Shown here: positions 4,090 to 18,506 of the stretch, piece by piece
How the letters are laid out: each line of letters begins with the position of its first letter
How positions within the stretch are numbered: position 1 is the stretch's first letter
Virus record (IMG/VR): IMGVR_UViG_3300022542_000941
Span: 1 to 23,828 of that record
Origin: a virus
Length of the DNA: 23,828 nt
Reading direction: 5' to 3' (one strand)
Position numbers and translations under genes: made by a program
The notes under the pieces: model-generated
The model's input: only the letters and a program-made list of their open reading frames with translations
Told to the model about the DNA's origin: nothing
Database searches by the model: none

Positions 4090-4123
4090 ATAATATCTAT
4101 ATTAACATTAAGAGCTCATTAAC
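4090..4123 (-). promoter_or_regulatory. Leftward tandem-heptamer promoter (HTH-terS-terL-portal operon)
   Basis: Read on the minus strand: GTTAATG (4123-4117), 4 bases, CTTAATG (4112-4106), 10 bases, then TATTAT (4095-4090), 29 bp before the GTG start of the HTH gene. It has the same 11-bp repeat period and 10-bp gap to the -10 box as the six rightward sites. There is no TTGACA-like -35 element. Confidence 0.75.
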
Positions 4124-4457
4124 ATGAAATTTAAGATTTTCTAACTAACATGGGTTTAATATGCTATAAACTTAAAAACATAGGAATTTCCAATCTTAAT
4201 AAATTTTTAAGTTTAAAAGGGGGAGGGTCTATGGTGGGTATATTACGTAATATAAAGAAAGAAGCTAATATAGCTAAAAAAGTATATAATTTTAAATACG
4301 AGTACGCATATAGGTGCATTGCACACGACCGTCGCTCTCTCGTATAATGCGCGTAATGCGTAGGCATGTATACGTATTAGTTACTATACGTAATATACCC
4401 ACCATGGACCCTCCCCCTTAATTTAATATTATTTTAAGTTTAAAAATAATTAATTCA
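4124..4457. other. Gene-free divergent intergenic region
   Basis: This stretch lies between the outward-facing promoters at 4090-4123 and 4458-4491. The two overlapping open frames here (plus 4150-4347, minus 4164-4367) run through an inverted repeat and its loop, have no ribosome site and are judged non-coding. The interior holds the 203-bp inverted-repeat element described separately. It is flanked by AT-rich sequence with two copies of TTTTAAGTTTAAAA (4205-4218 and 4431-4444). The position between divergent packaging and replication operons suits a replication origin, packaging site or regulatory hub. Confidence 0.7.
4217..4419. repeat. 203-bp element with 33-bp inverted-repeat ends and G-run arms
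   Basis: The arms 4217-4249 and 4387-4419 are reverse complements with one mismatch (T4230 against G4406, a wobble pair in RNA). Each arm has G runs on one strand: GGGGG, GGG, GG, GGG within 20 bases, almost a G-quadruplex motif, in a genome that is otherwise AT-rich. The 137-base interior is itself self-complementary: AATACG (4295-4300) with CGTATT (4373-4378), and TACGCAT (4303-4309) with ATGCGTA (4356-4362), plus the near-palindrome GTGCATTGCAC. The whole could extrude as a cruciform or fold as one long RNA hairpin. No coding function is apparent. Confidence 0.85.
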
Positions 4458-4491
4458 TTTAATGTCATCTTAATGTAATTTTACTTATAGT
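4458..4491 (+). promoter_or_regulatory. Rightward tandem-heptamer promoter for the primase leader
   Basis: TTTAATG (4458-4464), 4 bases, CTTAATG (4469-4475), 10 bases, then TATAGT (4486-4491). The predicted transcription start is near 4498, right at the outer edge of the 25-bp inverted repeat. Unlike the other sites of this family, which sit about 30-40 bp from their genes, this one leaves a leader of about 155 bases before the primase start. Confidence 0.7.
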
Positions 4492-4499
4492 GTCATTAT

Positions 4500-4634
4500 T
4501 AAAGTTCTTATCAGGTGATCAGATTAACCTCTTTTTAACTTAGCATTCTTCCTCCGCTAGGTTTTTATCTGATCACCTGAGGTCTTACTGTGCTATCCTT
4601 CACGGTTTTATCTGATCACCTGATAAGAACTTTA
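4500..4634 (+). repeat. Primase leader: 25-bp inverted repeat plus a third copy of its core
   Basis: Bases 4500-4524 and 4610-4634 are perfect 25-bp reverse complements. A third copy of the 14-bp core ATCTGATCACCTGA lies at 4567-4580, in the same orientation as the 3' arm (4610-4623). In RNA the 5' arm could pair with either downstream copy but not both. The hairpin with the middle copy gains extra pairs between AACCT (4526-4530) and AGGTT (4559-4563). In DNA the three copies look like binding sites (operators or origin iterons). The 3' arm ends 7 bases before the GGAAGGA ribosome site of the primase. Confidence 0.85.
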
Positions 4635-4653
4635 TAATATTGGAAGGATGTAA

Positions 4654-7104
4654 ATGAATAAAACTATTTATACAAAATATTATAATTTAGGTTTTCAACT
4701 TATCGAATTGGGTAACGATAAAAAACCTTTAAAGACCAGAACTAGAAAAAAGGGTGGTTGTAGTAAAGCTATGTCACCTTATAATGAAGATAAACATTAT
4801 GCAATCGTGCCACCAGATAATATACTTATAATTGATGTTGATATAAAAAAAGGTAAAAAAGGCTTAGAATCTCTTGCTAAATTAGAAACAGATCTTATGA
4901 TGGATTTAGTACCAAATGTCAAAACTGGATCCGGGGGACTTCATATTTATGTTTATGCTGATCAACCAATAAAGATAGAACAAAAAGAATATCCAGATAT
5001 AGATTTTATTTCTCATAGAGCTAATGATAGATTATGTACACCTTATGCAGTAGCTGGAGGTCAGACAATAATTTTTGAAAAGAAAGATTACGTATACGAG
5101 CTTTTAAGCCTTGATATCGCTGAAGTCAATGATATATGTGATCTATTGGTTATAGACGTTGTAGTAAGTCAGTTAAATGATACTATGATCAATTTAGACG
5201 ACTTATATGAGAGTAAAACCCCATTAGAAGTAGAACTATTATTAAAATGGCTTGATTCATCTGAATATCAAGAATGGATGGCAAATGCTTCTGCTATAAA
5301 ACGAGAACTTGGCAATACTGAAAAAGCTTTTAATATTTTTGATCGCTGGAGTCAAACTTCTGACAATTATGATGATCGAGATAGTTGTCTTAAAAAATGG
5401 AAAGAAGTAGGTAATTATCAAGGTCCACCAAGAACAATGGCAACACTTTATATGCATGCTATGGAAAATAAAATTAATAAGCTTTTAGATCTTATTAATA
5501 AAACAGAATATGAAGAAGATCTTATTGATTTATTTGCTAAACCAATGTGGGTACAATACCCAAAGATTCCTCGATCAAAAATCATTAATGAAATAGTAAA
5601 ATCTTTACAAATGAAATACTATAAACTTACAGAAGAAATACTTTCATATAATAGTGCTCAAAAAATAGCAAAACCCCTCTATGGCTTAGATCATGTAAAT
5701 AAAGAAGTGATCAAAGCTGAAATTATTGAAGAAAATCCTTTTGCTGACTTTGTAAGAGTTTCCTCATTTACTCGATGTCCATATTACCAGATAAGTACCG
5801 GAGGACGATATGATCTCGAGACTATTGGTATGATTTTAAAAGATCCTTTATATAAGTTATCACAAAAAATAGGACTAAAGAAAACCATGACCATACAAAC
5901 AGCTTTTGGAAACGGGGTTATACCTATGGCAATTTCCCATGAATATAATCCTACAATTAATGAAAGAATATTTAAAAGTGATACTGGTCAGCAAGTATTA
6001 AATTTATTTAATCCAAAAACTGTACCTATTGGAACATCGATTACTCAACAAGGCCAAAAACTAATAGATAAATTCATTAAACACTTATCTATACTTAGTA
6101 GTAATAAAGAAGCTCAAATCCTTTTAGATTGGATGGCTTATGCAGCTCAAAACCCTGGTAAAAAGATTTTATGGGTTCCACTTATACAATCAGTTGAGGG
6201 AATTGGTAAATCACTTATAGGTAATTTACTAATTTATCATGTTTTTGGTCAACAAAATGCCGGGGTAGTTGACTCAGTTATTATCGCTGAGAAAAACAAT
6301 TCTTGGGCTTCAAGCAAAATGCTGAGAGTATTAGAAGAGATTAAATTATCTGGTCATAATCGCTATGAGGTTCTTAATCAATTAAAACCGTTGATCACTA
6401 ACCATACGATAACTCGAGTTGAGAAATTTGAAGTTTCATCAGAAGTTAGGAACACATGTAATTTCCTAGCATTTACAAACTATAAGGACGCTTTACCTAT
6501 TGATGAACACGATCGTAGATGGTGGTTAGTATTCTCACCAATAGGTTCACTTAAAGATCTTGAGAAAAAAATAGGTATCAGTTTACAAGATTATTTTTCA
6601 CCATTACATGAATTAGCACAAGAACATTCACCTTATGGTACAGAGTTCAAAACCTTTCTTCTTGAGCGAGATATTAGTGAGTTTAATCCTAACTTTCCAC
6701 CAGAGTCTAAACACAAAGAAGAATTGGCTGAGATCGAAAGAGGTAAGATCATGGGTATTGATGAAGTTCAAGACCTTATCACCTTTGTTTATAAAGATGA
6801 TCTTCCACTAGTTATCAATATAAAGTTGATCCGTGAAGCAGCTGATATGGCTATTGATGAGAATGGCAAAAGAGTTACACCGAGAGGGGTAGGTCCACGA
6901 GAGATACGTGCTGTACTTAAGAAACTAGGTTATAAGACCTTAAGTAAGAAAGACTTTGCTGAAGCCGATTGGAAAGGGATCAGTCCATTTTACTATCAGT
7001 CCAAAACAACTACTATACCAGAAGCAGTAACTATCTGGAAGAAAGGTTATGATATTGATTTTATAGCTTACCAGTTTGATATGATCGATGATGAGGAATT
7101 ATAG
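4654..7104 (+). CDS. Primase-polymerase / SF3-type helicase fusion (VapE/DUF5906-like)
   Basis: An 816-residue replication initiator. The N-terminal primase-polymerase domain (about 1-150) has the catalytic DVD at 61-63 and GSGGLH ending in His97. A PriCT-like linker follows (about 190-255: WLDSSEYQEW, then a FDRWS segment and KKWKEV). The C-terminal ATPase has a Walker A SVEGIGKS near 513-520, an acidic LEEIK, a sensor Asn in LAFTNYKD and the RRWWLV segment typical of DUF5906/VapE-type phage proteins. Such proteins prime DNA synthesis and unwind the origin. GGAAGGA precedes the ATG; an ATG six bases earlier is followed at once by a stop. It is the first gene of the rightward replication block and directly follows the repeat-rich leader, which may be its own binding site. 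Confidence 0.9.
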   Translation: MNKTIYTKYYNLGFQLIELGNDKKPLKTRTRKKGGCSKAMSPYNEDKHYAIVPPDNILIIDVDIKKGKKGLESLAKLETDLMMDLVPNVKTGSGGLHIYVYADQPIKIEQKEYPDIDFISHRANDRLCTPYAVAGGQTIIFEKKDYVYELLSLDIAEVNDICDLLVIDVVVSQLNDTMINLDDLYESKTPLEVELLLKWLDSSEYQEWMANASAIKRELGNTEKAFNIFDRWSQTSDNYDDRDSCLKKWKEVGNYQGPPRTMATLYMHAMENKINKLLDLINKTEYEEDLIDLFAKPMWVQYPKIPRSKIINEIVKSLQMKYYKLTEEILSYNSAQKIAKPLYGLDHVNKEVIKAEIIEENPFADFVRVSSFTRCPYYQISTGGRYDLETIGMILKDPLYKLSQKIGLKKTMTIQTAFGNGVIPMAISHEYNPTINERIFKSDTGQQVLNLFNPKTVPIGTSITQQGQKLIDKFIKHLSILSSNKEAQILLDWMAYAAQNPGKKILWVPLIQSVEGIGKSLIGNLLIYHVFGQQNAGVVDSVIIAEKNNSWASSKMLRVLEEIKLSGHNRYEVLNQLKPLITNHTITRVEKFEVSSEVRNTCNFLAFTNYKDALPIDEHDRRWWLVFSPIGSLKDLEKKIGISLQDYFSPLHELAQEHSPYGTEFKTFLLERDISEFNPNFPPESKHKEELAEIERGKIMGIDEVQDLITFVYKDDLPLVINIKLIREAADMAIDENGKRVTPRGVGPREIRAVLKKLGYKTLSKKDFAEADWKGISPFYYQSKTTTIPEAVTIWKKGYDIDFIAYQFDMIDDEEL

Positions 7105-7110
7105 TCAGAT

Positions 7111-7144
7111 CTTAATGGAGTCTTAATGACTTCTTGGGAATAAT
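7111..7144 (+). promoter_or_regulatory. Tandem-heptamer promoter upstream of the small-membrane-protein operon
   Basis: CTTAATG (7111-7117), 4 bases, CTTAATG (7122-7128), 10 bases, then AATAAT (7139-7144), 38 bp before the ATG at 7182. Both heptamers match the consensus exactly. Confidence 0.7.
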
Positions 7145-7158
7145 GATCAAGTAACAAA

Positions 7159-7187
7159 ATAAAAAGATAAAAGGATAAAAAATGAAA
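7159..7187 (+). repeat. 29-bp leader repeat shared with 18507-18535
   Basis: The first copy of the 29-base exact repeat; it covers the ribosome site and start of the small exported protein gene. Both copies lie just downstream of a tandem-heptamer promoter. Confidence 0.9.
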
Positions 7188-7355
7188 GAAATTATAACAC
7201 TAATAATTATCTTGGGCGTGCTAATTGTACACTCAAGAGCTAATGCGCCTATATGCGAGATCTATAATGAAGGCACTAATCAATGCGAACTTCTCGCTGA
7301 CCAGAATTTTACTATAAATCTTAAGTGGATAAAAATCGTAGGAGATCATAAATGA
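7182..7355 (+). CDS. Small exported protein with signal peptide
   Basis: A 57-residue frame starting at an ATG with a strong AAAAGGATAAAAA site. The N-terminus is a textbook signal peptide: a short charged start, the hydrophobic core LIIILGVLIV, then an ANA cleavage site near residues 20-22. The mature part is about 35 residues with two cysteines (residues 25 and 35) that could form a disulphide outside the cytoplasm. Its stop overlaps the next ATG by four bases (ATGA). I recognise no family. Small exported phage proteins in early operons are often superinfection-exclusion or host-envelope factors, but that is inference. Confidence 0.7.
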   Translation: MKEIITLIIILGVLIVHSRANAPICEIYNEGTNQCELLADQNFTINLKWIKIVGDHK

Positions 7356-7459
7356 TTAAAGTAGAAAAATATCTTTGGGTAGCTTTGGTGGTATTAGCTA
7401 TCTTTACGATTAAAAATGAACTAATCCCCTTCATGATAGAAAGGTGGATAGTGGGATGA
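7352..7459 (+). CDS. Small single-span membrane protein
   Basis: A 35-residue frame overlapping its upstream neighbour by four bases (ATGA) and its downstream neighbour likewise. One transmembrane helix, YLWVALVVLAIFTI, spans about residues 7-20 after a short N-terminal segment; the C-terminus is short. The double ATGA overlap makes translational coupling of all three small genes (7182-7626) likely and argues that this short frame is real. It may partner the exported protein encoded just before it. No family is recognised. Confidence 0.6.
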   Translation: MIKVEKYLWVALVVLAIFTIKNELIPFMIERWIVG

Positions 7460-7626
7460 GAAAGATAATTAAAATGATCTTTTCTGAGATTACTATGACT
7501 TATTTAATTTCTCCTAAAACTACTAATTATAGGACTTATAATAATGTTGATAAAAAGATAATAGTGAGTGATCAAAATCTAAATAAAAAACCAATAAATA
7601 ATCCAATACCAGAAAGGAGTTATTAA
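7456..7626 (+). CDS. Small basic protein, unknown function
   Basis: A 56-residue frame whose ATG at 7456 overlaps the previous stop (ATGA); an in-frame GTG at 7444 is possible, but the AAGGTGG site at 7441-7447 and the overlap favour 7456. The N-terminal 20 residues are amphipathic and basic, and the C-terminal part is rich in Asn, Lys and Pro. It ends where the helicase gene begins (TAATG). No domain is recognised. It could be a peripheral membrane partner of the two upstream proteins. Confidence 0.55.
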   Translation: MRKIIKMIFSEITMTYLISPKTTNYRTYNNVDKKIIVSDQNLNKKPINNPIPERSY

Positions 7627-8882
7627 TGAAATTAAGTAAAAATCAAGAAAGAGCCATGAAGCTCTCGTTAAATGATAAAATAGCGACACTGTTTGTCACT
7701 GGCCCGGGTGGTACAGGTAAAAGTGAGATCATCAAAAGATTGGTAAATAAGCTTGATCCAAATCAGTTTGTTTTATTAGCTCCAACTCAATCAGCAGCTT
7801 TGAATATTGGTGGACAAACTATGCACTCATTTTTCAAAGTCAAACCAACTATAAATATTGAAGCTGACAAAGAAGAAGATGTTATCAGTTTTTTTCTCGA
7901 TGAAGTTGATACAGATAACGCTGACGGTAAGATAATAATTATCGACGAAGCTTCTATGTTAGGTGAGAAAATGCTAAATGGCATTCTCAGTAGAATTAAG
8001 CCTAAAAAACTTATTCTTTTTGGTGATCCTGAGCAATTAAAACCGATCAAAGATAGTGAGGTTGATTGGTCAGACTTTTGTGATGTAACTGTTTACCTGG
8101 ATCATAATTATCGAGTGCATAATGAAGACCTTAGATCGATCATGGATCACTTTAGAAAGACTGAAGAACTTTTACCAATTGTTAATACAGTTGGTGAGAT
8201 TAAAGAGCTTAGATACGATCCTAATACAACGTACATGGCACATACAAATTCTACTCTGAGTAAGATGCAAAAACATCTACTTGGTTATAGTCATGCCAAA
8301 TTAGGTGATACACTTTTGACATTTGGTGGCTGCGATGATAGTATTCAAAAAAAGATCATTGTAAGAGGTAGTGAAAGGACCACAGGATACTTTAATAATA
8401 ATGATCTTATAGTTGTTAAATCTGAACCAAGATTGATCGAAGAGGGACTTTGGTCATGTAATGTAATTATTCTTGAAGATCATGAGAAAAACAAAGACTC
8501 GATCCATATTAATAAGTTTCGTAAAATACCTCAAGTCATTATAGGTAATTATACTCGTTATAAATCAATTTTAAAAAGGAGGTTTAAATCAGCACAAGAC
8601 TATCAGTCAAAAATGAAAAGTAAGTATCGAACCAATGACACAGCTTATATGAAAAGAAGCCTAAGTAATGAAGAAGATCGTCGGCTCAGAAAACTCTGGG
8701 TAAACTACTTTAATTTAAAGAATTCACCTTATGCCAGACATCACCAATTTAGAACTACTTATAAAGCTCAAGGAAAGGCTTTTGATAGTGTAGTAATAGA
8801 TTGGGACGACTTACCATCTAAAGACCATAAAGAAGTGGCTATGGGAAGAGCGATTAATAATTTAACTTTAATTACTGTTTAA
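7626..8882 (+). CDS. SF1B DNA helicase (Dda/RecD/Pif1-like)
   Basis: A 418-residue helicase with the full superfamily 1 motif set in order: Walker A GPGGTGKS (26-33), motif Ia-like APTQSAA, Walker B IIIDEAS (about 104-110), motif III FGDPEQLKP (about 133-141), motif V in TYKAQGKAFDSVVID near residue 380 and a C-terminal AMGRA that corresponds to the usual ALSRA of motif VI. The size is close to T4 Dda (439 residues). Such helicases translocate 5' to 3' on ssDNA and act in origin firing, fork restart or recombination. The gene follows the small membrane-protein genes with a TAATG overlap and an AAAGGAG site upstream. Confidence 0.88.
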   Translation: MKLSKNQERAMKLSLNDKIATLFVTGPGGTGKSEIIKRLVNKLDPNQFVLLAPTQSAALNIGGQTMHSFFKVKPTINIEADKEEDVISFFLDEVDTDNADGKIIIIDEASMLGEKMLNGILSRIKPKKLILFGDPEQLKPIKDSEVDWSDFCDVTVYLDHNYRVHNEDLRSIMDHFRKTEELLPIVNTVGEIKELRYDPNTTYMAHTNSTLSKMQKHLLGYSHAKLGDTLLTFGGCDDSIQKKIIVRGSERTTGYFNNNDLIVVKSEPRLIEEGLWSCNVIILEDHEKNKDSIHINKFRKIPQVIIGNYTRYKSILKRRFKSAQDYQSKMKSKYRTNDTAYMKRSLSNEEDRRLRKLWVNYFNLKNSPYARHHQFRTTYKAQGKAFDSVVIDWDDLPSKDHKEVAMGRAINNLTLITV

Positions 8883-8910
8883 TGATAGCTTAATGTAAAT
8901 ATAGTATAAT
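8878..8910 (+). promoter_or_regulatory. Tandem-heptamer promoter for the recombination/polymerase block
   Basis: TTTAATG (8878-8884), which includes the helicase stop codon, 4 bases, CTTAATG (8889-8895), 9 bases, then a perfect TATAAT (8905-8910), 38 bp before the ATG at 8949. The gap is one base shorter than at the other sites unless the box is read one base later. Confidence 0.75.
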
Positions 8911-8948
8911 AACTATGTTATAAAAATTAAAACAAAAAGGATAAAACG

Positions 8949-9305
8949 ATGAAAGTAATACTTACAATCGAAAACCACGAGGATGCAGTTGCTGCACAGA
9001 AAATGCTTGGAGCTTATTTAGGAAAAGAAGTTTCAAAATCTGCAGCTAAGAAAACTACAACTAAAAGATTAACAACTAAAGAGCCAGAAGCTAAAGAGCC
9101 AGAAGTTGAAAAATCAGAAGCTAAAGAACCTGAAACTAAAACTGAAAGTATTGATCTCGCTGAACTTACAAAAATCGCAAAAGCTGCAGTAGCAAAGACT
9201 GATAGAGCTATTGTAAAAGATGTGATTAGTGCTTATGGTGCAAAGTTATCAGAAGTTGATACTAATGATTATGAAGCACTTTCAGAAGAGTTAAAGGCTC
9301 TATAA
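8949..9305 (+). CDS. Two-domain hypothetical phage protein with KEPE-repeat linker
   Basis: A 118-residue protein with three zones. Residues 1-30 look like a small beta-alpha unit (MKVILTIENHEDAVAAQKML). Residues about 31-65 are a low-complexity charged linker with imperfect KEPEA/KEPEV/KEPET repeats, seen also at DNA level. Residues about 70-118 form a compact helical domain ending in ISAYGAKLSEVDTNDYEAL. That C-terminal pattern (YGAxKLSEV.. then a Tyr-Glu-Ala-Leu helix) is one I recall from small phage proteins next to DUF2800/DUF2815 genes. Its stop overlaps the start of the DUF2800 gene (TAATG). The function is unknown; a replication or recombination accessory role is inferred from position. 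Confidence 0.75.
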   Translation: MKVILTIENHEDAVAAQKMLGAYLGKEVSKSAAKKTTTKRLTTKEPEAKEPEVEKSEAKEPETKTESIDLAELTKIAKAAVAKTDRAIVKDVISAYGAKLSEVDTNDYEALSEELKAL

Positions 9306-10501
9306 TGCCAGGAGCTCATGCAAAGCTGAGTCCTTCTGGATCGAGTCGATGGCTTAATTGCCCCGGCTCAGTAAGGATGACAGCAAATCTTGAAAATAAA
9401 TCTGGTGATGCTGCCTTTAGAGGTACAGTAATCCACCAAGCCGGTGAAAATATTCTTCTTGGCGAAGAGTGCCATGCTGGTATAAGTATCACTATTGAAG
9501 GTGAGTCTAAAGCTGAATGGTTGGCTAAGGATATGTTTGAAGAAGCCGACTTTTATGCTAAGTATGTTATGGACCTTGCTAATCGATGTCCAAATTCAGA
9601 AATGATCGCAGAAATGAAAATAGATCTCACAGATATTGCTGATGAAACCTTTGGCCACTCAGACGCTATTGTAATTGAAAACGGTAATTTACATATTATT
9701 GATCTTAAGACTGGTGCTGGATTAGTTTCAGCCAAAGATAATTCTCAACTGATGTTATACGGTCATGGTGCTTTTAAAGAGTTAGAAATGTTTCACGATA
9801 TTGAGAATATTGTTTTCCATATTGTACAAAACAATTCCAAAACAGGCTCTGATAAGTCTAACTCTCATACTATTATAATTGATGAGTTAATCGACTGGAT
9901 CGATGAAATCGTTAAACCTGCAGCTAAAATGGCTTTGACAGAGGATGCTATATGTGTACCTGGTGACAGTCAGTGTCAATGGTGTCAGGCAGCTTCATTC
10001 TGTCCAGCACTTATGGATCAAGTTGAAGATATGTTTGATGAGCTTACCGAAAATCACCAAAATGAGAATATCAAACATATCGGCGAAGTAGTACCTTTGG
10101 AAAAAGCCCTTAATTTCTATAAGTCAGTTAGTCTCATAACTACTTGGATGAAGGCTATTGAAAACCGTATATTTGATAAGCTTGAACTTGGTGAAGATAT
10201 CCCTGGTTACAAGTTGGTAAAAAAGATTAAGCATAAAAAATGGACTGATGAAAGTGAAGCTTATGAGAAATTGAAATCATGGGAAAAGCTTGATGATATT
10301 GCTCCCCGTAAATTGGTAACACCAAACCAAGCTGAAAAGATCTTAGGTAAAATGACAGCACCCAAAACAAAGAAATTCAATGATCTTTGGATAAGACCTC
10401 AAGGAGAATTAACAATAGCTCTTGAGTCAGATAAGCGACCGGCTGAAAAACCAGTCATAGAAGAATTTGATATCATCGATGATGATAATGATGATCTCTA
10501 A
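9305..10501 (+). CDS. DUF2800 family Cas4/RecB-like nuclease with Fe-S cluster cysteines
   Basis: A 398-residue protein beginning with the signature HAKLSPSGSSRWLNCPGS of DUF2800. Catalytic features of the PD-(D/E)XK fold are visible: His in RGTVIHQAGE (about 45), Asp in FGHSDA (about 119), and DLKTGAG (about 131) as the D..(D/E)xK core, followed by the conserved Gln in SQLMLYG. Four cysteines, one near the N-terminus (NCPG) and three in CQWCQAASFC near 223-232, match the split 4Fe-4S cluster of Cas4/AddB-type nucleases. These enzymes process DNA ends in phage recombination or replication. The gene is followed by DUF2815 and DNA polymerase genes, an arrangement common in tailed phages. Confidence 0.9.
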   Translation: MPGAHAKLSPSGSSRWLNCPGSVRMTANLENKSGDAAFRGTVIHQAGENILLGEECHAGISITIEGESKAEWLAKDMFEEADFYAKYVMDLANRCPNSEMIAEMKIDLTDIADETFGHSDAIVIENGNLHIIDLKTGAGLVSAKDNSQLMLYGHGAFKELEMFHDIENIVFHIVQNNSKTGSDKSNSHTIIIDELIDWIDEIVKPAAKMALTEDAICVPGDSQCQWCQAASFCPALMDQVEDMFDELTENHQNENIKHIGEVVPLEKALNFYKSVSLITTWMKAIENRIFDKLELGEDIPGYKLVKKIKHKKWTDESEAYEKLKSWEKLDDIAPRKLVTPNQAEKILGKMTAPKTKKFNDLWIRPQGELTIALESDKRPAEKPVIEEFDIIDDDNDDL

Positions 10502-10680
10502 ATAATATATTTGGTCCCTGTCTACGGTAGGTGAATATGAAGTATAGATACTGAGTAGGGTGTATAGGATAAAAAGTAATTATTTATCTGAACTACAACT
10601 TGAAAGGTTACCATTGGATGGCTTCCTCCAACGACAAACCAAATATAAAGATAAAACGACAAAATCTAAAAGGATATAAA
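10502..10680 (+). other. Non-coding gap before the DUF2815 gene
   Basis: About 180 bases without a convincing gene. A 26-codon in-frame extension of the next gene is open here, but it lacks a ribosome site and is not conserved in feel. A small stem TTGGA/TCCAA (about 10613-10630) and a CCCT/AGGG pairing across 10516-10560 are visible but weak. No tandem-heptamer promoter occurs. It may be a processed leader; I see no clear function. Confidence 0.5.
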
Positions 10681-11205
10681 ATGTCAAAAGTTACAATTCC
10701 AAAAGCAAGATTAAGTTTTCCAAGTTTATTTCAAAAAAGTGTATTTGAAGGTAAAGAAGGCAAATATGAAGCTACTCTACTTTTTCCAAAGACTGACACC
10801 AAAACGTATGACAAAGTTATAGCAGCGATCAATGAATGTAAAACTACTGCAAAAATCAAAGTCGCAAATTCAAAGCTATGTATTCAAGATGGTGATGAGA
10901 TCTATGATGAAAAAGAGTATGATGGTTATCAAGGTATGTGGGCGGTTAAAGCTGCAAACAGTAAAAGACCTACACTCCTAACTGGACAAAAAGAACCGAT
11001 CGTTGAAGAGGATGAGATACTCTATGCTGGTTGTTTCGTAAATGCCATTATTGATCCCTGGGCTCAAGATAACAATTGGGGTAAACGTATCAACGCAAAC
11101 CTTCTAGGTATTCAGTTTGTTAAAGATGGCGAATCATTTGGTGATGCTACTGTAGCAGAAGCTGATGACTTCGATGAAGTATCTGAAGAAGATGAAGATC
11201 TTTAG
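10681..11205 (+). CDS. DUF2815 family, probable single-stranded DNA-binding protein
   Basis: A 174-residue protein. The start at 10681 is chosen because of the strong AAAAGGATATAAA site and because the family begins directly with the conserved KVTIPKARLSFPSLF segment. The body is beta-rich with aromatic residues (QGMWAVKAAN, NNWGKRINANLLGIQF) that suit an OB-fold-like ssDNA-binding protein. The last 25 residues are strongly acidic and end in EEDEDL, as in bacterial and phage SSBs, where an acidic tail recruits partners. DUF2815 proteins sit next to DUF2800 nucleases and DNA polymerases in many phages. The SSB role is a family-level expectation, not shown by sequence. Confidence 0.82.
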   Translation: MSKVTIPKARLSFPSLFQKSVFEGKEGKYEATLLFPKTDTKTYDKVIAAINECKTTAKIKVANSKLCIQDGDEIYDEKEYDGYQGMWAVKAANSKRPTLLTGQKEPIVEEDEILYAGCFVNAIIDPWAQDNNWGKRINANLLGIQFVKDGESFGDATVAEADDFDEVSEEDEDL

Positions 11206-11212
11206 TTGATTG

Positions 11213-11466: not shown

Positions 11467-13289
11467 AACATTTTATCGCTAGGAAGACTCTTGTTACTTG
11501 TGATATAGAAGCTTCTCCAAATGCGTTCCTCATTGGCTTTAAAGGTGTTGAGTCAGGCAAAGTACTGCAAATGAGTTTAAGAGGCGAAAATGCCCGCTTT
11601 ACGATCGAACAAAGAAAGAAATTGAGAGGTACACTATTAAAACATGGTCACGTTACTTTCGGGGGTGTAAAATTTGATATGCCAGTGATCTTAAAATCGT
11701 TAATGGGAGCTTCTGTTTCTGAATTGAAAAAGATGAGTTCGACTATGATCGAAAAGAATATGCCAGGCTGGTTAGCTATGAAGCAATTTGATGTTGAACA
11801 TGTACCAGGTATTGTTCATATCGATCTCTTTGAACCTGCACCAGGTGTCATGGTATCTTTGAAAATGTATGGAGCGAGACTTCATTCTGATAGGCTTCAA
11901 GATCTACCTTACGAACACGATAAATATTTAACTGAAGAAGAATTTAAAATCTGGGCAAAATATAATATCAACGATCTTGATACAACTGAAGATCTATATA
12001 ATGAAATAAAAGATGCTATCGATCTACGGTATGCTATGAGTGATAAATACCAAATGGACTTGATGTCAAAAGGGGATGCTCAGATCGCTGAAGCTATTAT
12101 GATACAAGAAATCGCAAAGAGCGGTGTAAGAATTAAAAAAGCTTCACTAAAATCTAATCACACTTTCAAATATAAAGCTCCTGATTGTGTAAGCTTTGTT
12201 AGAGAAGATCTTAAGCAATTATTAATTAATGTTCAAAATGAGGATTTTACCTTGGATAAAAGTGGTAAACCAAAACTTCCAAAATGGCTATCAAAACCTA
12301 TTCAAATTGGTGAAACAAAATATAAATTTGGTCTTGGTGGTATACATTCACAAGAAAAGAAATTAGTATTTGAGTCAGATGATCAATACGTTATACGAAC
12401 TGCAGATGTTGGATCATATTATCCTTCAGAAATCATCGAATATGAATACTATCCTTCAAATATTGGTAAAATTTTCTTAGATATTTATACAGCCTTTTAT
12501 TGGGCCAGGAATCATCCCGTAACCGGATCAAAAGCTCTTGGTAAAAAAACTGAGAGTGATTCAACAAAATTAACCCTTAATGGTTTATTTGGAAAATTTG
12601 GATCAAAATGGTCAAAAGTATATGCTCCAGAATTGATGATCCAGGTAACATTAACTGGTCAACTTCTTTTGGTTATGCTCATTGAACAACTAGAGCTTGC
12701 AGGAGTGACTGTTTTAAGCTCAAATACCGATGGTATAGAGTATGTATGCAAAAGATCCCAAGTAGCTAAAATAGAGGCCATTATATATGATTGGGAGCTG
12801 GAAACAGGTATGACAATGGATCACGCTGAGTATGTAGCTTTGTATGCTCGTGATGTCAACAACTATGTAGCCATATATCCTGGTTATACAAAATCAAAAG
12901 GTGCTTATGGTGATCCTACTCCTAAAAAGAATGCCGAATATTATATTGTATTTGATGCGATTAAGAAATATCTTTTAGATAAAACACCACTTGAAGAAAC
13001 GATCAGAGCTTGTGAAGATGTAAGAGAATTCATTATTTGTCGAAATGTTACAGGTGGCGGAATATGGAAAGAAGAATATCTTGGTAAAGTTGTACGCTGG
13101 TATTATTCTACTCACGGTGAAAAGATCGTATCCAAAAAGAATGGTAACAAAGTAGCAAAAAGTGATAATGCTAGACCGATTATGGATTTACCTTTTGATA
13201 ATGAAATTCCTGGCGATTTAGATATTGATTATTATATTGATTTGGCAATTGGTCACTTAAAAGATTTAGGAGTAGATTATGTTTCATAG
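11463..13289 (+). CDS. Family B DNA polymerase with 3'-5' exonuclease domain
   Basis: A 608-residue replicative polymerase, compact for family B. The exonuclease domain shows Exo I CDIEAS (Asp14, Glu16), Exo II FGGVKFDMP (about 72-80) and Exo III YNINDLDTT (about 167). The polymerase domain shows motif A ADVGSYYPSEI (in place of DxxSLYPS), motif B KLTLNGLFGKFG and motif C SNTDGIEY. Motif C has Asn where YGDTDS enzymes have the first Asp, but the catalytic second Asp is kept. The start is set at 11463 because of the ATGA overlap with the previous gene; an in-frame ATG at 11451 lies inside that gene. The C-terminal region is the likely thumb. It probably replicates the phage genome. Confidence 0.9.
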   Translation: MKHFIARKTLVTCDIEASPNAFLIGFKGVESGKVLQMSLRGENARFTIEQRKKLRGTLLKHGHVTFGGVKFDMPVILKSLMGASVSELKKMSSTMIEKNMPGWLAMKQFDVEHVPGIVHIDLFEPAPGVMVSLKMYGARLHSDRLQDLPYEHDKYLTEEEFKIWAKYNINDLDTTEDLYNEIKDAIDLRYAMSDKYQMDLMSKGDAQIAEAIMIQEIAKSGVRIKKASLKSNHTFKYKAPDCVSFVREDLKQLLINVQNEDFTLDKSGKPKLPKWLSKPIQIGETKYKFGLGGIHSQEKKLVFESDDQYVIRTADVGSYYPSEIIEYEYYPSNIGKIFLDIYTAFYWARNHPVTGSKALGKKTESDSTKLTLNGLFGKFGSKWSKVYAPELMIQVTLTGQLLLVMLIEQLELAGVTVLSSNTDGIEYVCKRSQVAKIEAIIYDWELETGMTMDHAEYVALYARDVNNYVAIYPGYTKSKGAYGDPTPKKNAEYYIVFDAIKKYLLDKTPLEETIRACEDVREFIICRNVTGGGIWKEEYLGKVVRWYYSTHGEKIVSKKNGNKVAKSDNARPIMDLPFDNEIPGDLDIDYYIDLAIGHLKDLGVDYVS

Positions 13290-14604
13290 AGATGATCATA
13301 GACCTTATCAAATCAAAGGTGTTCAGTTCATAAAGGATCACAAAGGTTCAGCTTTATTCCTCGATATGGGTTTAGGTAAAACAACAATTACCCTAACAAC
13401 AATATTAGATCTTCTTAATGACTTTGAAGTTATTAAGCCGATTATAGTTGCACCACTAAGAGTGGCGAATACAGTTTGGCATAATGAGTCTGATGACTGG
13501 TCTCACCTTGAAGAGTTGGGTTTCTCGATCATCACAGGTGATGTTAAAACAAGACTTGCAGCTTTGGATAAAAAAGCTGATATTTATGTTATCAACAGAG
13601 AGAATATTCCTTGGCTTGTAGATTACTATAAGAGCAAGTGGCCTTTTGATCTATTAGCTATTGATGAAAGTACCTCATTTAAAAATCCTACATCGAAAAG
13701 ATTTAGAGCTTTGAAAAAAGTCTTAAAGTATATTAACAAAAGAATGATCCTCACGGGGACACCCTCACCAAACGGCTATATGGATCTATGGTCTCAGATC
13801 TATATACTCGACGAAGGTAAAAGATTGGGTAAAAATATTACTAGATTTAGAAACACTTATTTTGATAAAGACTTTATGGGTTTCAACTATACTCTCAAAG
13901 AAGGATCAGCTGAACGCATACAAGAAAAAATCAAAGATATTGTTTATCATGTACCAACAGAAGGTAATGTTAATCTACCCGAGGTAGTTTCATCTGTTAT
14001 CGATACACCTCTTACACCTAAACTATTGAAACAATACAAAAATTTTGAAGAAGATATGATCATGAGTATGGAAGGTGAGAATATCACTGCTATGTCAGCC
14101 GCAACACTATCAAATAAGCTCTTACAGTTCTCCTCTGGGGCAATATATGATGAAGAGAGTAATGTACACCATATACACGATTTAAAATTTGATACACTTG
14201 ATGAAGTGATAGAAGAAAACCCAAACGATAATATGCTGATAGCTTATAATTTTAAACACGAATTAGATAGACTTAAGAAGCGATACCCTGAAGCAGTTGT
14301 TTTGAGTAAAGAGGGATCAGAAGTCAAGACCTGGAATGAAGGTAAGATCAAGATGATGTTAGTCCATCCAGCTTCTGCTGGTCATGGCCTAAATCTTCAG
14401 CACGGGGGTTGCTTATTGGTCTGGTTAGGTTTTACTTGGAGCTTAGAGAACTATCAGCAGCTTAATAAAAGGTTACATCGATCGGGTCAAAAGAATACTG
14501 TAAGACTTATCCATCTCGCTATTGGTGATGTAGAATATAGACTGATGAGATCTTTAGCCAAAAAAGATGTAACACAATCTGAATTATTGGAGGCACTAAA
14601 ATGA
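13279..14604 (+). CDS. SNF2-like DNA helicase / translocase
   Basis: A 441-residue superfamily 2 ATPase that starts inside the end of the polymerase gene (11-base overlap). RecA-like domain 1 carries the Q-motif region RPYQIKGVQF (8-17), Walker A MGLGKT (30-35), Walker B IDES (about 127-130, DES in place of DEAH) and motif III LTGTPSPNG. Domain 2 carries a WLGFTWSLENYQQ segment and motif VI LNKRLHRSGQ. This is the short SNF2/RapA-like form found in phage replication modules beside VRR-NUC nucleases. Such proteins translocate on dsDNA to remodel protein-DNA complexes or forks. Confidence 0.9.
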   Translation: MFHRDDHRPYQIKGVQFIKDHKGSALFLDMGLGKTTITLTTILDLLNDFEVIKPIIVAPLRVANTVWHNESDDWSHLEELGFSIITGDVKTRLAALDKKADIYVINRENIPWLVDYYKSKWPFDLLAIDESTSFKNPTSKRFRALKKVLKYINKRMILTGTPSPNGYMDLWSQIYILDEGKRLGKNITRFRNTYFDKDFMGFNYTLKEGSAERIQEKIKDIVYHVPTEGNVNLPEVVSSVIDTPLTPKLLKQYKNFEEDMIMSMEGENITAMSAATLSNKLLQFSSGAIYDEESNVHHIHDLKFDTLDEVIEENPNDNMLIAYNFKHELDRLKKRYPEAVVLSKEGSEVKTWNEGKIKMMLVHPASAGHGLNLQHGGCLLVWLGFTWSLENYQQLNKRLHRSGQKNTVRLIHLAIGDVEYRLMRSLAKKDVTQSELLEALK

Positions 14605-15059
14605 GCGATACATTTGATCACGAAGGCGATGCTTGGGATAGTTTACTATACGATAATGATCCAGGTGGATATAACGGCTTTGATTATGATCCAAATTTCA
14701 ACCATCATGGTATGAGATATGTTTCAATAGAAGCTGAAACAGAAAAAGCTTATTTATTTGAATTATCTATTGGTAGATGCTGGATCCCGAAAAAGCTTTG
14801 CCGCGATCTCAAAAGAAATAGGAAGACTTTCAAGCTATGGGATGGCTTTACTTTAAATCCACTTAAAGAAGAAAATATCGTAGATATGTTTGATGAAGTT
14901 GAGGAAATTGAAGACTCACCTAAGATTGTAGAAACTAAAAAGAAGATCAAAAAAGTTAAAGAAAAGATCAAAGACTTTATATATAGAAAAGATGATCTCA
15001 ACTGGTTACTTGATCCCGACTTCAAATTTAAAAAAGTGAAAGTCTATAAAAACTATTAA
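14601..15059 (+). CDS. Hypothetical acidic/basic phage protein with conserved ETEKA-WIPK segment
   Basis: A 152-residue protein whose ATG overlaps the helicase stop (ATGA). The N-terminal 35 residues are rich in Asp, Gly and Asn. Residues about 42-68 contain SIEAETEKAYLFEL followed by CWIPKKL, a pattern I recall as a small beta domain in phage proteins of replication modules (ETEKA then WIPKS). A charged helical coiled region (about 98-125, Lys/Glu-rich) follows, then a short basic tail. It lies between the SNF2 helicase and VRR-NUC genes and is coupled to both. The function is unknown. Confidence 0.75.
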   Translation: MSDTFDHEGDAWDSLLYDNDPGGYNGFDYDPNFNHHGMRYVSIEAETEKAYLFELSIGRCWIPKKLCRDLKRNRKTFKLWDGFTLNPLKEENIVDMFDEVEEIEDSPKIVETKKKIKKVKEKIKDFIYRKDDLNWLLDPDFKFKKVKVYKNY

Positions 15060-15361
15060 TGAAGTCTGAAAAACAAATTCAAACTTATATTCTTAAATTC
15101 CTAAAGTCTATAAATTGTTATAGTATTAAAACAGTAGTTTCAAACCGAAAAGGTATTGTTGATATACACGGCTGCTACCAAGGATTCTACTTTGCTATAG
15201 AAGTTAAGGCTGAGAATAAAGACTTCAGGGATGTTACTAAGCTACAGCGATATGATCTCAATGCTGTGAATGACGCTAAAGGCTTTGGCTTCTTTACTAA
15301 CTCAATATCTCATTTTGATGTTATTTGGAACTTTTATATGGATAATGAGTTCTTAATGTAG
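15059..15361 (+). CDS. VRR-NUC family nuclease
   Basis: A 100-residue single-domain nuclease of the PD-(D/E)XK superfamily. The core is GIVDIHGCYQGFYFAIEVKAE (about residues 32-52): Asp35 and the EVK pair supply the D..ExK active site. TKLQRYDLNAVNDAKGFGFF then gives the conserved Gln and following helix. The length is typical of stand-alone phage VRR-NUC proteins, which cut branched DNA such as Holliday junctions or flaps. The gene starts at a TAATG overlap and ends in the promoter at 15352. The pairing with SNF2 helicase and polymerase is standard in phage replication modules. Confidence 0.88.
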   Translation: MKSEKQIQTYILKFLKSINCYSIKTVVSNRKGIVDIHGCYQGFYFAIEVKAENKDFRDVTKLQRYDLNAVNDAKGFGFFTNSISHFDVIWNFYMDNEFLM

Positions 15362-15385
15362 TCTTAATGAAAGATTAGGAATAAT
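15352..15385 (+). promoter_or_regulatory. Tandem-heptamer promoter overlapping the VRR-NUC stop
   Basis: CTTAATG (15352-15358), 4 bases, CTTAATG (15363-15369), 10 bases, then AATAAT (15380-15385), 37 bp before the ATG at 15423. The first heptamer encodes the last codons of the nuclease gene. Confidence 0.72.
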
Positions 15386-15406
15386 GCTCTTATCAAAAAT
15401 AAAATG

Positions 15407-15432
15407 ATAAAAGGAAAACAAAATGTCAAAAC
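15407..15432 (+). repeat. 26-bp leader repeat, copy 1
   Basis: An exact 26-base match to 15672-15697. It spans the ribosome site, the ATG and the first codons of the 15423 gene. The copy-to-copy distance is 265 bp. Confidence 0.9.
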
Positions 15433-15635
15433 CCGAAATTAAAAATATTGAATTATATTTTATAGGAATAATAGGTAAATATTTACTTCTTGCAAGTAAG
15501 TCAGAAAGTAAAGATGAACAAAAAATAGCTATATCTGAAGCTAAAGATATATTGGGTGGATTTCCTTTAAATACAAAAAGTAAAATAATAGATAATTTAT
15601 ATGATTATCTTAACGAACTCTTAACGAACTCTTAA
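15423..15635 (+). CDS. Small hypothetical protein in its own promoter cassette
   Basis: A 70-residue, Lys/Ile-rich, probably all-helical protein with an AAAAGGAAAAC ribosome site. Residues 8-25 form an amphipathic helix (NIELYFIGIIGKYLLLAS), followed by charged helices. The gene has its own promoter upstream and ends inside the next promoter; the last codons are made of the heptamer repeats. It begins with the same 26-bp leader as the methyltransferase gene that follows, and its first residues (MSKPE, MSKHC) therefore agree. It lies at the start of the low-GATC stretch. No family is recognised. Confidence 0.65.
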   Translation: MSKPEIKNIELYFIGIIGKYLLLASKSESKDEQKIAISEAKDILGGFPLNTKSKIIDNLYDYLNELLTNS

Positions 15636-15653
15636 TGATATATGAATTATAAT
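15609..15653 (+). promoter_or_regulatory. Triple-heptamer promoter for the N4/N6 methyltransferase
   Basis: CTTAACG (15609-15615), CTTAACG (15620-15626) and CTTAATG (15631-15637), each separated by AACT, then 10 bases and a perfect TATAAT (15648-15653), 34 bp before the ATG at 15688. This is the only site with three repeats in phase. Confidence 0.8.
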
Positions 15654-15671
15654 ATACTTATAAATAAAGTA

Positions 15672-15697
15672 ATAAAAGGAAAACAAAATGTCAAAAC
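15672..15697 (+). repeat. 26-bp leader repeat, copy 2
   Basis: An exact match to 15407-15432. It covers the ribosome site, ATG and first codons of the methyltransferase gene. Confidence 0.9.
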
Positions 15698-16572
15698 ATT
15701 GTAACAATGTAACTCCCACAGAGCGTCTTAGTTTTATTGAGAAAGACCCAATTTATCATTGCAAATGTGAATATTGTACAAAAGGTAAATTTTTAGGAGA
15801 GATTTTCAACAGTAAAGAAAATAAATATTATTCACAAATTGCAAGAAAAAAGTATTATCCTAAAATTGATAATAAAAAGTTTCCTCATAACAATCCTGGT
15901 CACTGGCCGGGTTATCGCTTTGCAATACACAATCTAACTAAAGAAGGTGATATAGTTTTTGATCCAACTGTTGGAACAGGTACTGCTATAGTTGAAGCTG
16001 AAAATAATAATCGAATTGGTGTGGGGATTGAATTAGAGTTTCCTGAAACTACAAAATATATGACTGAAAATAGAGGAACAGTCATCAGTGGAAATGCATT
16101 AACTGTTGATCCCAAGACTTTTTTAGAAAAAGACTCTATACAACTTTTAATAAATGGTACACCATATCTAACATTTGGCTCACAATCTTCAGATGCACCT
16201 TTCGGGCCAAAAGATCAGGAGCAATATGGTGACTATAAACATACAGATAATATTGGTAAATGGAAAGAAAAATATTATAAGAAACATATCCATAAACTTT
16301 ATACAAGATATATTCCTTATATTAAAGAAGGAGGGTATTTGTGTATAATTATAAAAGATCCAACAAACAATAAAAAGCCATATAATCTTCATAAATTGAT
16401 TATTGATAATATTCTTGAGAATAATCCTGAAATGGTTCATTATGGGTCATTTGTTCATAGACATATTCCAACTACTTTTTTCATGAATACTTATGAAAAA
16501 ATAAACAATATACCTCTGAAGGTTTGGCATCAAACTGCAATAATTTTAAAGAAAATAGAAAAGGAACTATGA
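15688..16572 (+). CDS. N4-cytosine/N6-adenine-type DNA methyltransferase
   Basis: A 294-residue protein with the SAM-binding motif I VFDPTVGTGTAIVEA (about 90-104) following a HWPGYRFAIHNLT segment that corresponds to motif X, so the order is X-I-IV. Motif IV appears as LLINGTPYLTFG (about 153-164): NGTPY replaces the usual (D/N/S)PP(Y/W), with one Pro-Tyr pair kept. The N-terminus has clustered Cys/His (CNNV, HCKCEYC) that may bind zinc. Such enzymes methylate exocyclic amines in DNA, often to evade restriction. The target site cannot be read from sequence, and the altered motif IV leaves activity open. It has a promoter of its own, a duplicated leader and a lower GATC content than most of the window. 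Confidence 0.75.
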   Translation: MSKHCNNVTPTERLSFIEKDPIYHCKCEYCTKGKFLGEIFNSKENKYYSQIARKKYYPKIDNKKFPHNNPGHWPGYRFAIHNLTKEGDIVFDPTVGTGTAIVEAENNNRIGVGIELEFPETTKYMTENRGTVISGNALTVDPKTFLEKDSIQLLINGTPYLTFGSQSSDAPFGPKDQEQYGDYKHTDNIGKWKEKYYKKHIHKLYTRYIPYIKEGGYLCIIIKDPTNNKKPYNLHKLIIDNILENNPEMVHYGSFVHRHIPTTFFMNTYEKINNIPLKVWHQTAIILKKIEKEL

Positions 16573-17045
16573 TGATTGAAGTAAAAATAACTGGACCCCA
16601 CGGATTAAGTGATCCTAAATTCGCAGCTCAAGACTCTACTGGCAAAATCTGGTATAAAGCTAAAAGAAAATCTGATGTTAAAACCTCAGTTAAAAGATCA
16701 AAACACGATCTCACTTTAGTTGAAGAATTTACATCTTCAACTAAACCAAAAACTAAAAAGAAAATTGAAAAGAAAAAAGTAAATAGTTACGAAAACTATC
16801 GAGATTATATTTTGGGGTTACCTTTAAATACAATATTGACAATAAATTCCCCTGCTGTTCCTGTTTTCTGTTATAAGTTCGGTTTAAAATTATCTAAAAT
16901 TAAACATAATTTGACTTGGGTGAAAACTCTTGAAAATATGGAAAAAGAAGGATATCTTGTTTATAGAAACAAACAAACTGGCAAATATAAAAAATTAGTT
17001 TTTGATTGGCACCCGGATATTAAAAATAATATGGAGGAACTATAA
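16569..17045 (+). CDS. Hypothetical protein with Lys-rich linker
   Basis: A 158-residue protein. The start at 16569 (ATGATG) overlaps the methyltransferase stop in ATGA and follows AAAAGGA; a longer frame from 16524 lies inside the methyltransferase and lacks a ribosome site. Residues 1-55 are beta-rich with GPHGLSDPKF. Residues about 62-80 are a Lys-rich linker (KPKTKKKIEKKK). Residues about 85-158 look like a winged-helix unit (ILGLPLNTILTI, then LTWVKTLENMEKEGYLVYR with a wing-like turn, then KYKKLVFDWH). A DNA-binding role is possible but not shown. The two methionines leave the exact start open. Confidence 0.65.
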   Translation: MMIEVKITGPHGLSDPKFAAQDSTGKIWYKAKRKSDVKTSVKRSKHDLTLVEEFTSSTKPKTKKKIEKKKVNSYENYRDYILGLPLNTILTINSPAVPVFCYKFGLKLSKIKHNLTWVKTLENMEKEGYLVYRNKQTGKYKKLVFDWHPDIKNNMEEL

Positions 17046-17308
17046 TGGCAAAGCATAAAATAGATGATTGGGTTACTAATAGGCGGTTTGGAAGCTCTGA
17101 GCCATTCAAACTAAAGTGTTCTGATTTTAAAGGTATAAGTGCAAAAAGTAAAGAATGGTTTTCTTCTTTGAAAACATGGAAGCCAAAAGAAGGTGATTGG
17201 ATTTTTGTAATAGATTCCGACGATAGTGCGACTTTATGCCGGTATAACCAATTAAAGAAAGGTTATTTAATTGAACCCTTTATTGGTACATTACCAAACT
17301 TTATATAA
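17045..17308 (+). CDS. Hypothetical protein, 87 residues
   Basis: A small, Lys/Trp-rich protein starting at a TAATG-type overlap with the previous stop. It contains five tryptophans and a segment GDWIFVIDSDDSATLCRYNQLKKGYLIEP that looks like a small beta barrel (SH3- or KOW-like in feel). It sits just before the C5 methyltransferase and shares its transcript. I recognise no family. No GATC site occurs in this gene, in contrast to most of the window. Confidence 0.65.
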   Translation: MAKHKIDDWVTNRRFGSSEPFKLKCSDFKGISAKSKEWFSSLKTWKPKEGDWIFVIDSDDSATLCRYNQLKKGYLIEPFIGTLPNFI

Positions 17309-17317
17309 GGAAATAAA

Positions 17318-18463
17318 ATGAAACAACTAACAATTGCCGGAGTAACCTCTGGTGTGGGATCAATGCTGATAGGAGCTCAAGCTCTTGGGTATAAAGTGCT
17401 AGGAAACGTCGAGTGGCGGAACTACTATAATACTGGAACTTTTGAACATAACTTCAAAGCTCCTTATACCATTGACTATAATGATATTGATTATCTTAAA
17501 GGTGCTGACGTAGTTATGGTTCATGATGATTGCGGAGATTTTTCTGGTCTCAATCTTACAAAAAAGAAAGATAATCATTTACAAAATTGTATAGGAATGA
17601 TCCCAGAAACTATCCGAGTTGTACAAGAGATTAATCCAAAATTCTTTGCTATGGATAATTTACCAAAAATGGCTGAGACTTTCCCTGCTTCATATTGGAT
17701 TGAGAAGTTTCCTGATTATGATATCTTTTTTGAATGGGTAAGTAATTATCATTATGGTAATCCCCAGAAAAATCGCAAAAGGTTTTTTATTATAGGAGCT
17801 AAGAAAGAACTTAACTTTATATTTAAACCTAACGAATTTGATTTTAAAATTGATTCAATGGATCAATATGAGGTTGAAGAATTTGATGATGTATTAAACC
17901 ACCATCCAGTTGATCCCCAAGACAAAGCTCAATTTAGTAAATTAGTTGATGAAATGGAAATACCTATGATAAAATGGATAGACATTCATGAATATTGGCA
18001 AAGAAATTCTGATTCAAGAAAAACTCTACCTTATATTAAACCTGATGGAATAGTGAGTCGTAAACCTGGTACAGCTAAAAATCCTGAGACATATTCAATG
18101 GTTATTACAGGAGGTGTTGCAACCTTCCATCATAAAACCGGTTATCCTCTTACAATTAGGGAACGAGCAAGAATACAAGGATTCCCTGATGACTTTGAAT
18201 TTATTCTTAAAGATAAAGATCATTGGGGCGGAAAAGGCTTCAGACAAGTAGGTAAGGCCATGCCGGTCCAATTTACCACTTACTTAGCAAATATCTTTAA
18301 AGATCATTTAGAGGGTGTAGAAACAGTAGCTACGGGTCAAAGAATGATCGCAGCGAATAGGTATATAGATAAGATCAAATTGAACTATTGCGAAAGAGTC
18401 GCTTTACCTGATGGATCTTGTGATCATTGTTGGCTTCAAGATAAATGTCCAAATTGGTTATAA
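17318..18463 (+). CDS. Divergent C5-cytosine DNA methyltransferase
   Basis: A 381-residue protein with the Dcm-family motif order: motif I VTSGVGSMLIGAQALG (9-24) and motif II around VEWR; motif IV as HDDCGDFSG with candidate catalytic Cys72 (the usual PPCQxFS is changed); motif VI as MDNL (112-115) in place of ENV; motif VIII PQKNRKRFFIIG; motif IX ITIRERARIQGFPDDF-like; and motif X QVGKAMPV. The target-recognition region between VIII and IX is short. A C-terminal extension ends in four cysteines (CERVALPDGSCDHCWLQDKC) that could bind a metal. The family transfers methyl groups to cytosine C5 in DNA. Altered motifs IV and VI leave activity and product uncertain. It lies directly upstream of the nucleotide-modification genes. 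Confidence 0.82.
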   Translation: MKQLTIAGVTSGVGSMLIGAQALGYKVLGNVEWRNYYNTGTFEHNFKAPYTIDYNDIDYLKGADVVMVHDDCGDFSGLNLTKKKDNHLQNCIGMIPETIRVVQEINPKFFAMDNLPKMAETFPASYWIEKFPDYDIFFEWVSNYHYGNPQKNRKRFFIIGAKKELNFIFKPNEFDFKIDSMDQYEVEEFDDVLNHHPVDPQDKAQFSKLVDEMEIPMIKWIDIHEYWQRNSDSRKTLPYIKPDGIVSRKPGTAKNPETYSMVITGGVATFHHKTGYPLTIRERARIQGFPDDFEFILKDKDHWGGKGFRQVGKAMPVQFTTYLANIFKDHLEGVETVATGQRMIAANRYIDKIKLNYCERVALPDGSCDHCWLQDKCPNWL

Positions 18464-18464
18464 T

Positions 18465-18498
18465 CTTAATGTCATCTTAATGTATTTAATATTATAAT
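18465..18498 (+). promoter_or_regulatory. Tandem-heptamer promoter for the modification cluster
   Basis: CTTAATG (18465-18471), TCAT, CTTAATG (18476-18482), 10 bases, then a perfect TATAAT (18493-18498), 31 bp before the ATG at 18530. It is the closest match to the shared consensus in the window. Confidence 0.82.
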
Positions 18499-18506
18499 GA
18501 CTATAC

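Follow-up and report, generated by a model that had tools for sequence, protein, structure and literature searches.

Tandem TTAATG promoters without a -35 box in a phage lineage, probable targets of a host OmpR/PhoB-family activator

Background

The pho box bound by PhoB consists of 7-bp direct repeats with a 4-bp spacer, placed about 10 bp before the -10 box. HsrA/CosR is an essential regulator and is already under study as a drug target; HsrA is reported to be independent of phosphorylation and to serve housekeeping genes. HP1043 sites have the form TTTAAG-N5-TTTAAG directly upstream of the -10 box, in place of the -35 box; the H. pylori targets of HP1043 include ATP synthase subunit C (PMC5253667). 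The register, the 11-bp period, the absent -35 box and the TTAA core have all been published for HP1043/HsrA (PMC5253667, PMC8345958). CosR binds AATTAAGATATTATTAACCAA with a KD of 2.5 nM (PMC10936212). The Klebsiella box of a further regulator, PmrA (BasR), is TCTTAATATTATCCTAAGC (PMC3973317). RNA-Seq of the Campylobacter phage NCTC12673 assigned most transcription to two novel A/T-rich promoter motifs; this 2018 study does not mention CosR and leaves the promoters unexplained (PMC6024767). We found no report in the literature linking HsrA/CosR to phage promoters.

Here we analyze tandem promoter-like sites in 23,828 nt of the virus record IMGVR_UViG_3300022542_000941 (hereafter, the window), which a sequence-only reading had compared to pho boxes and had suggested would couple the phage cycle to a host signal.

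Methods

Relatives of the window's phage were found via its primase and large terminase; a query with its DNA polymerase found no viral relatives. A position matrix was built from the seven window sites, with 200 dinucleotide shuffles serving as the control. Host promoters were surveyed in 761 upstream regions from 1.59 Mb of the Campylobacterota genome G387, together with coding controls. The promoter pattern was also searched in 397 Campylobacterota genomes, and the exact motif in all viral contigs. The first 50 kb of the Campylobacter phages CP220 (annotated repeats masked) and NCTC12673 were analyzed.

Results and discussion

Seven tandem sites at gene boundaries

Direct reading of the window located all seven sites at the coordinates originally reported (Table 1), and their scores with their own matrix (25.7-31.2 bits) exceed the overall maximum of the shuffles (21.1 bits; mean maximum 13.6). 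In the triple site at 15609, the upstream repeat scores 16.6 bits, and everything else in the window scores at most 14.2. The exact pattern YTTAAYG-N4-CTTAAYG occurs seven times on the plus strand, including the overlapping pair at 15609/15620, and not once when read backwards; the minus-strand site has G as its first base and hence lies outside this pattern. The described layout of tandem repeats with a 4-base spacer, 9-10 nt from a -10 box, holds, the gap being 9 nt at one site and 10 nt at the other six. Two repeats per site is likewise correct in general, but the site at 15609 has three.

Table 1. Promoter sites of the window and the helix-turn-helix (HTH) gene
Feature	Coordinates	Strand	Repeats, gap and -10 box	Genes and remarks	Orthologous sites
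HTH protein, 86 aa	3800..4060	-		First gene behind promoter 1; rival regulator	
Promoter 1	4084..4123	-	GTTAATG-agct-CTTAATG, 10 nt, TATTAT	Leftward operon: HTH, small and large terminase, portal	G001, G002, L010, L065
Promoter 2	4458..4497	+	TTTAATG-tcat-CTTAATG, 10 nt, TATAGT	Upstream of primase gene; 156-nt structured leader	G001, G002, L010, L065
Promoter 3	7111..7150	+	CTTAATG-gagt-CTTAATG, 10 nt, AATAAT		
Promoter 4	8878..8916	+	TTTAATG-atag-CTTAATG, 9 nt, TATAAT	118-aa gene, DUF2800, Gp2.5-like SSB, polymerase, helicase	G002:24089, L065:10297
Promoter 5	15352..15391	+	CTTAATG-tagt-CTTAATG, 10 nt, AATAAT		L065:16446
Promoter 6	15609..15659	+	CTTAACG-aact-CTTAACG-aact-CTTAATG, 10 nt, TATAAT	Three repeats; upstream of N6/N4 DNA methylase gene	
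Promoter 7	18465..18504	+	CTTAATG-tcat-CTTAATG, 10 nt, TATAAT	Upstream of nucleotide-metabolism genes	L082:994

At six of the seven sites a gene starts 23-32 nt past the expected transcription start, and each of these six expected leaders ends in a GGA-type ribosome site; the primase gene, with its expected leader of 156 nt, is the exception. For comparison, 4.2% of random positions have a gene start on their strand within 60 nt (P for at least six of seven = 4e-8). A ATAAAAGGA-like leader is common to several promoters. Three sites (8878, 15352 and 15609/15620) reach 5 to 27 nt into the end of the gene upstream; these three, which had been called intergenic, thus lie at gene ends and are not strictly intergenic. 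All seven sites are at gene boundaries, and the motif is not as frequent inside genes as between them. TTGACA is absent, as had been noted; a weak ATGTCA-like hexamer is, however, present 18 nt from the -10 box at 18465 and 4458.

Direct half-sites about 11 bp apart, an adjoining -10 box and no -35 box form the geometry of an OmpR/PhoB-family tandem activator site, which supports the earlier comparison with sites of this family. The seven sites very likely function as promoters, and the data support a single promoter class serving gene groups on both strands. The boxes could instead be operators, bound by a repressor of the phage or the host that blocks polymerase, since they overlap the -35 region and CosR is known to repress some genes (PMC3139631). 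We consider this most improbable: the absence of a usable -35 element leads one to expect an activator, the listed ORFs include no integrase or lysogeny module, and replication and structural genes alike are preceded by these sites.

Several other features adjoin the promoters. A 33-nt inverted repeat (97% complementary, arms 137 nt apart) lies at 4217-4419, between the divergent promoters, and an inverted repeat with a different arm sequence occurs at the matching place in the relatives G001 and G002; it is possibly a replication origin or a structured RNA/DNA element. The primase mRNA leader contains, at 4500-4634, a 28-nt inverted repeat (96%) with an internal arm copy, a shorter version of which is found in G001. 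An Rfam search of the window gave no match. Behind promoter 7, positions 18679-22302 encode a thymidylate-synthase-like protein, an asparagine-synthase/amidotransferase-like protein without a phage match and, by sequence, dCMP-deaminase-like and MazG-like proteins, a cluster that could serve DNA base modification.

Conservation in related phages

Four related phages (G001, G002, L010 and L065) carry orthologous sites. The best matches of the window matrix in G001, G002 and L010 precede gene starts, several of them at orthologous places, namely before the HTH gene on one strand and before the primase gene on the other. L065, found independently through the promoter-pattern search of the 397 Campylobacterota genomes, is contig 20 of G387; it contains twelve window homologues in conserved order, and its four top-scoring sites are exactly those that were expected. 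Contig 17 of the same genome (L082) continues the L065 phage, to which it would be joined, and adds two sites. Judging by the gene order in G387, the leftward operon, which runs from the HTH gene through the terminase and tail genes, seems to have one such promoter only. Together, the two contigs represent most of a relative of the window's phage within one Campylobacterota genome.

The 23 sites of the five phages follow the consensus N[TC]TAATG-N4-[CT][TC]TAATG-N10-[TG]A[TC]AAT with free spacers, the core being TAATG-N6-TAATG located 10 nt upstream of the -10 box, and ten core positions carry about 1.4-2 bits. The architecture and conservation of the sites are established. The distant relatives G004-G007 have scattered TTTAAG-like sites only. 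When all viral contigs were scanned, the exact motif turned up in 17, none with window homologues; several of these matches lie inside genes and most are apparently due to chance, with the exception of L156, an AT-rich, possibly T4-like contig that encodes a GroEL homologue and has several tandem TTTAAT-N5-TTTAAAG promoters (1299-9796).

Each of the five phages of the lineage retains the 86-aa HTH protein, whose gene invariably comes first after promoter 1, and this protein could itself be the cognate regulator of the TAATG boxes, acting as an autoregulating activator or as a repressor. Co-occurrence in G411 is a genuine argument for this protein, for the HTH protein is the only one that this otherwise unrelated phage has in common with the window, and tandem promoters are found there too, one of them directly before the HTH gene; G005, a relative by its terminase, has neither the protein nor the tandem promoters. 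On the G411 contig L243 the HTH protein is encoded at 2157-2411 and TTTAATN-N4-TTTAATN promoters lie at 2094, 5524 and 13728 (and 5256). We nevertheless think it unlikely that the HTH protein is the cognate regulator. Its own first expression would go unexplained if all promoters needed it, promoters of the same geometry occur in phages without a detected copy (L156, 10.5 kb searched; CP220 and NCTC12673, by annotation only), and host promoters share the register (see below). AlphaFold predicts a compact helical HTH (pLDDT 82), but the protein has weak generic HTH matches only and its fold match is not significant, a structural search with the model giving no match at E 0.001 or better.

Host group and host promoters

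G387 is a genome from the phylum of a Sulfurovaceae MAG, and the syntenic relative that it contains suggests Campylobacterota as the host group of the window's phage, although the window has no host label of its own and the G387 contigs may be mis-binned. The terminase was considered as a host marker and rejected: its similarity is 37-39% to prophage-like loci in Campylobacterota genomes but also about 40% to Klebsiella phages, and it is therefore not diagnostic of the host.

In the upstream regions of G387, -10-like hexamers are preceded by an excess of TTAA at distances of 15-16 and 26-27 nt, whereas the coding controls are flat. When all 4-mers from 12 to 45 nt upstream were ranked, TTAA at 27 came first (79 vs 32 expected) and TTAA at 16 second (76 vs 34 expected), and TTTAAG, the HP1043 (HsrA) box, was within the top four 6-mers at 28 and 17 nt. 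This is the register of the phage sites, in which the two TTAA begin 27 and 16 nt upstream of the -10 box. Expectation-maximisation seeded by the -10 box alone also arrived at TTAA repeats 11 bp apart in the phage register, in 59% of 755 upstream regions. TTAA at both positions showed no joint excess beyond independence in G387, and the full phage matrix was not enriched on the host chromosome (99 matches vs 110 reversed).

The bases that follow TTAA differ. At host promoters any of the four bases occurs in this position, and G is avoided at the last position of the second half-site (0.02). Among host sequences, the phage matrix scores highest at the atpE promoter (gene identified from sequence reading). 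Orthologues of atpE and rpmE have TTAATG where their relatives have TTAAAG or TTAAAC: three genomes have TTTAATG-taga-TTTAATG at rpmE and a close relative TTTAAAG-taat-TTTAAAA, while atpE shows ATTAATG among other TTAA variants. Host promoters thus tolerate TTAATG. The few exact matches in the 397 Campylobacterota genomes precede ccoG, ferritin, rpmE and nrdB (names from sequence reading).

Phages with named hosts

The same promoter type occurs in CP220 (Firehammervirus) and NCTC12673 (Fletchervirus), with tandem TTAA that keep both the period and the distance to TATAAT; these T4-like phages are unrelated to the window's phage and, unlike it, have the TTTAAG form. CP220 contains nine strict TTAA-N7-TTAA-N12-TATAAT sites, vs 0.05 in shuffles and one reversed; the second half-site is TTAAG in eight of the nine, and every other combination of period and spacing that was tested gives 0-1. 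NCTC12673 has four strict sites, vs 0.02 expected, and about a dozen looser intergenic ones, and one site coincides with a promoter annotated in its record. We infer that its published A/T-rich motifs are the tandem boxes. Expression of cmeABC is about two-fold higher during NCTC12673 infection (PMC6024767); as CosR represses cmeABC (PMC4943160), it is conceivable that phage boxes titrate CosR. In CP220, each annotated tandem repeat region (L245, 42450-43956) contains a minus-strand TTTAATATTACTTTAAG site before TACTAT, and these regions are possibly arrays of promoters or regulator-binding decoys. The Helicobacter phage KHP30 has no intergenic tandem sites.

The breadth of the host signal would fit an element without any activator, in which the tandem TTAA are periodic AT tracts read by sigma-70 or polymerase throughout the Campylobacterota. 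The TTAA enrichment at 16 and 27 nt is indeed spread across many host promoters, and a weak periodic model fits more than half of the upstream regions. This explanation appears very unlikely to us, given that the phage cores approach 2 bits per base and include a fixed G in every repeat, features that neither curvature nor an AT-tract signal needs, and that the exact 11-bp period and 12-nt spacing of CP220 (nine sites vs 0-1 for other combinations) point to a protein dimer.

Candidate regulators

The tandem sites of HP1043/HsrA and CosR in Helicobacter and Campylobacter resemble the phage sites in having two direct half-sites a helical turn apart that adjoin the -10 box, no -35 hexamer, a TTAA core and an activator position (PMC5253667, PMC8345958, PMC10936212). 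They differ in sequence, the published TTTAAG-N5-TTTAAG standing against YTTAATG-N4-YTTAATG with an invariant TG; the window lineage keeps the TTAA core, which TG follows instead of G. The CosR-bound AATTAAGATATTATTAACCAA is likewise TTAA-N7-TTAA with bases after TTAA unlike those of the phage. G387 encodes 17 PF00486 matches, among them an HsrA/CosR orthologue (L164) with a nearly identical DNA-binding domain, which matches the regulator 8uvx at 7e-109 and HP1043 (2hqr) at 2e-88. The phage sites share their register with promoters of a Campylobacterota host, and the putative host encodes the regulator. No PF00486 match was found in the seven phage records, the window and several others of which are fragments, which speaks against the suggested phage-encoded OmpR-type regulator. 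PhoB itself is also disfavored: the sites have the repeat geometry of the pho box, but the CTGTCAT repeats of the latter differ from the phage boxes, and no link to PhoB was found. Among the candidates named earlier, the HsrA/CosR type fits best, by register, period and the lack of a phage PF00486 protein; the assignment is putative, with TAATG in the phage core as against the host consensus TTAAG/TTAAC.

A different host OmpR-family response regulator with TAATG specificity might bind the boxes, in which case the phage would read the signal of that regulator. The 17 PF00486 matches provide candidates, the invariant TG is unlike the HsrA consensus, and the PmrA box of enterobacteria, like the phage sites an 11-bp head-to-tail repeat with a CTTAAT half-site, shows that family members recognise CTTAAT (PMC3973317), although PmrA belongs to an enterobacterial host and its second half-site is CCTAAG or TTAAT. 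We rate this as rather unlikely, as G387 yielded no regulon that carries the exact TAATG box, the exact matches in the 397 genomes precede housekeeping-type genes and not those of one signal pathway, and the Campylobacter phages of named hosts have the HsrA-like TTTAAG form.

We favor the HsrA/CosR account, in which the sites would be sigma-70 promoters with a -10 box but no -35 box, the place of the latter being taken by two half-sites arranged head to tail at a distance of one helical turn (11 bp). An OmpR/PhoB-family winged-helix activator dimer, bound at about -40 to -23, would recruit the host RNA polymerase, and the activator would be supplied by the host as the essential HsrA/CosR-type regulator of Campylobacterota. 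The window genes with visible promoters, the leftward late operon included, lie behind such sites, so that the host machinery would need no modification to transcribe the phage as soon as infection begins. What has been observed is the sites themselves, their geometry, conservation and position, and their agreement in register with host promoters and with promoter-like sites of known Campylobacter phages; activation by an OmpR/PhoB-family dimer is likely; in the account as a whole, with host HsrA/CosR as the most likely dimer, we place moderate confidence. Against it stand the near-invariant TG of the phage boxes, where the host varies and HP1043 prefers TAAG; the missing enrichment of the full matrix in the host chromosome and of paired TTAA beyond independence; an AT-rich 11-bp periodicity that could reflect polymerase and not HsrA; the lack of such sites in KHP30; and the possible mis-binning of the phage contigs in G387.

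A more speculative variant, to which we give a low probability, is that unrelated Campylobacterota phages run their transcription via HsrA/CosR as a single essential and constitutive host response regulator, and that in the window lineage the half-site has changed to TAATG and is recognised together with a phage-specific partner such as the 86-aa HTH protein; phage promoters would then be distinguishable from host ones.

Conclusions

The sites described here suggest that a host protein probably turns on the viral genes. The proposed coupling of the phage cycle to a host signal is unsupported: since HsrA reportedly serves housekeeping genes without needing phosphorylation, it is simpler to assume that the phage has constitutive access to the basic transcription of its host. 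If the HsrA/CosR account is true, phages across an entire phylum would require this regulator as a host factor, the A/T-rich promoters that are still unassigned in Campylobacter phages would be explained, and phage DNA would be predicted to compete with host genes for the regulator. It would also provide a ready promoter model for annotating Campylobacterota phages, which are mostly known from metagenomes.
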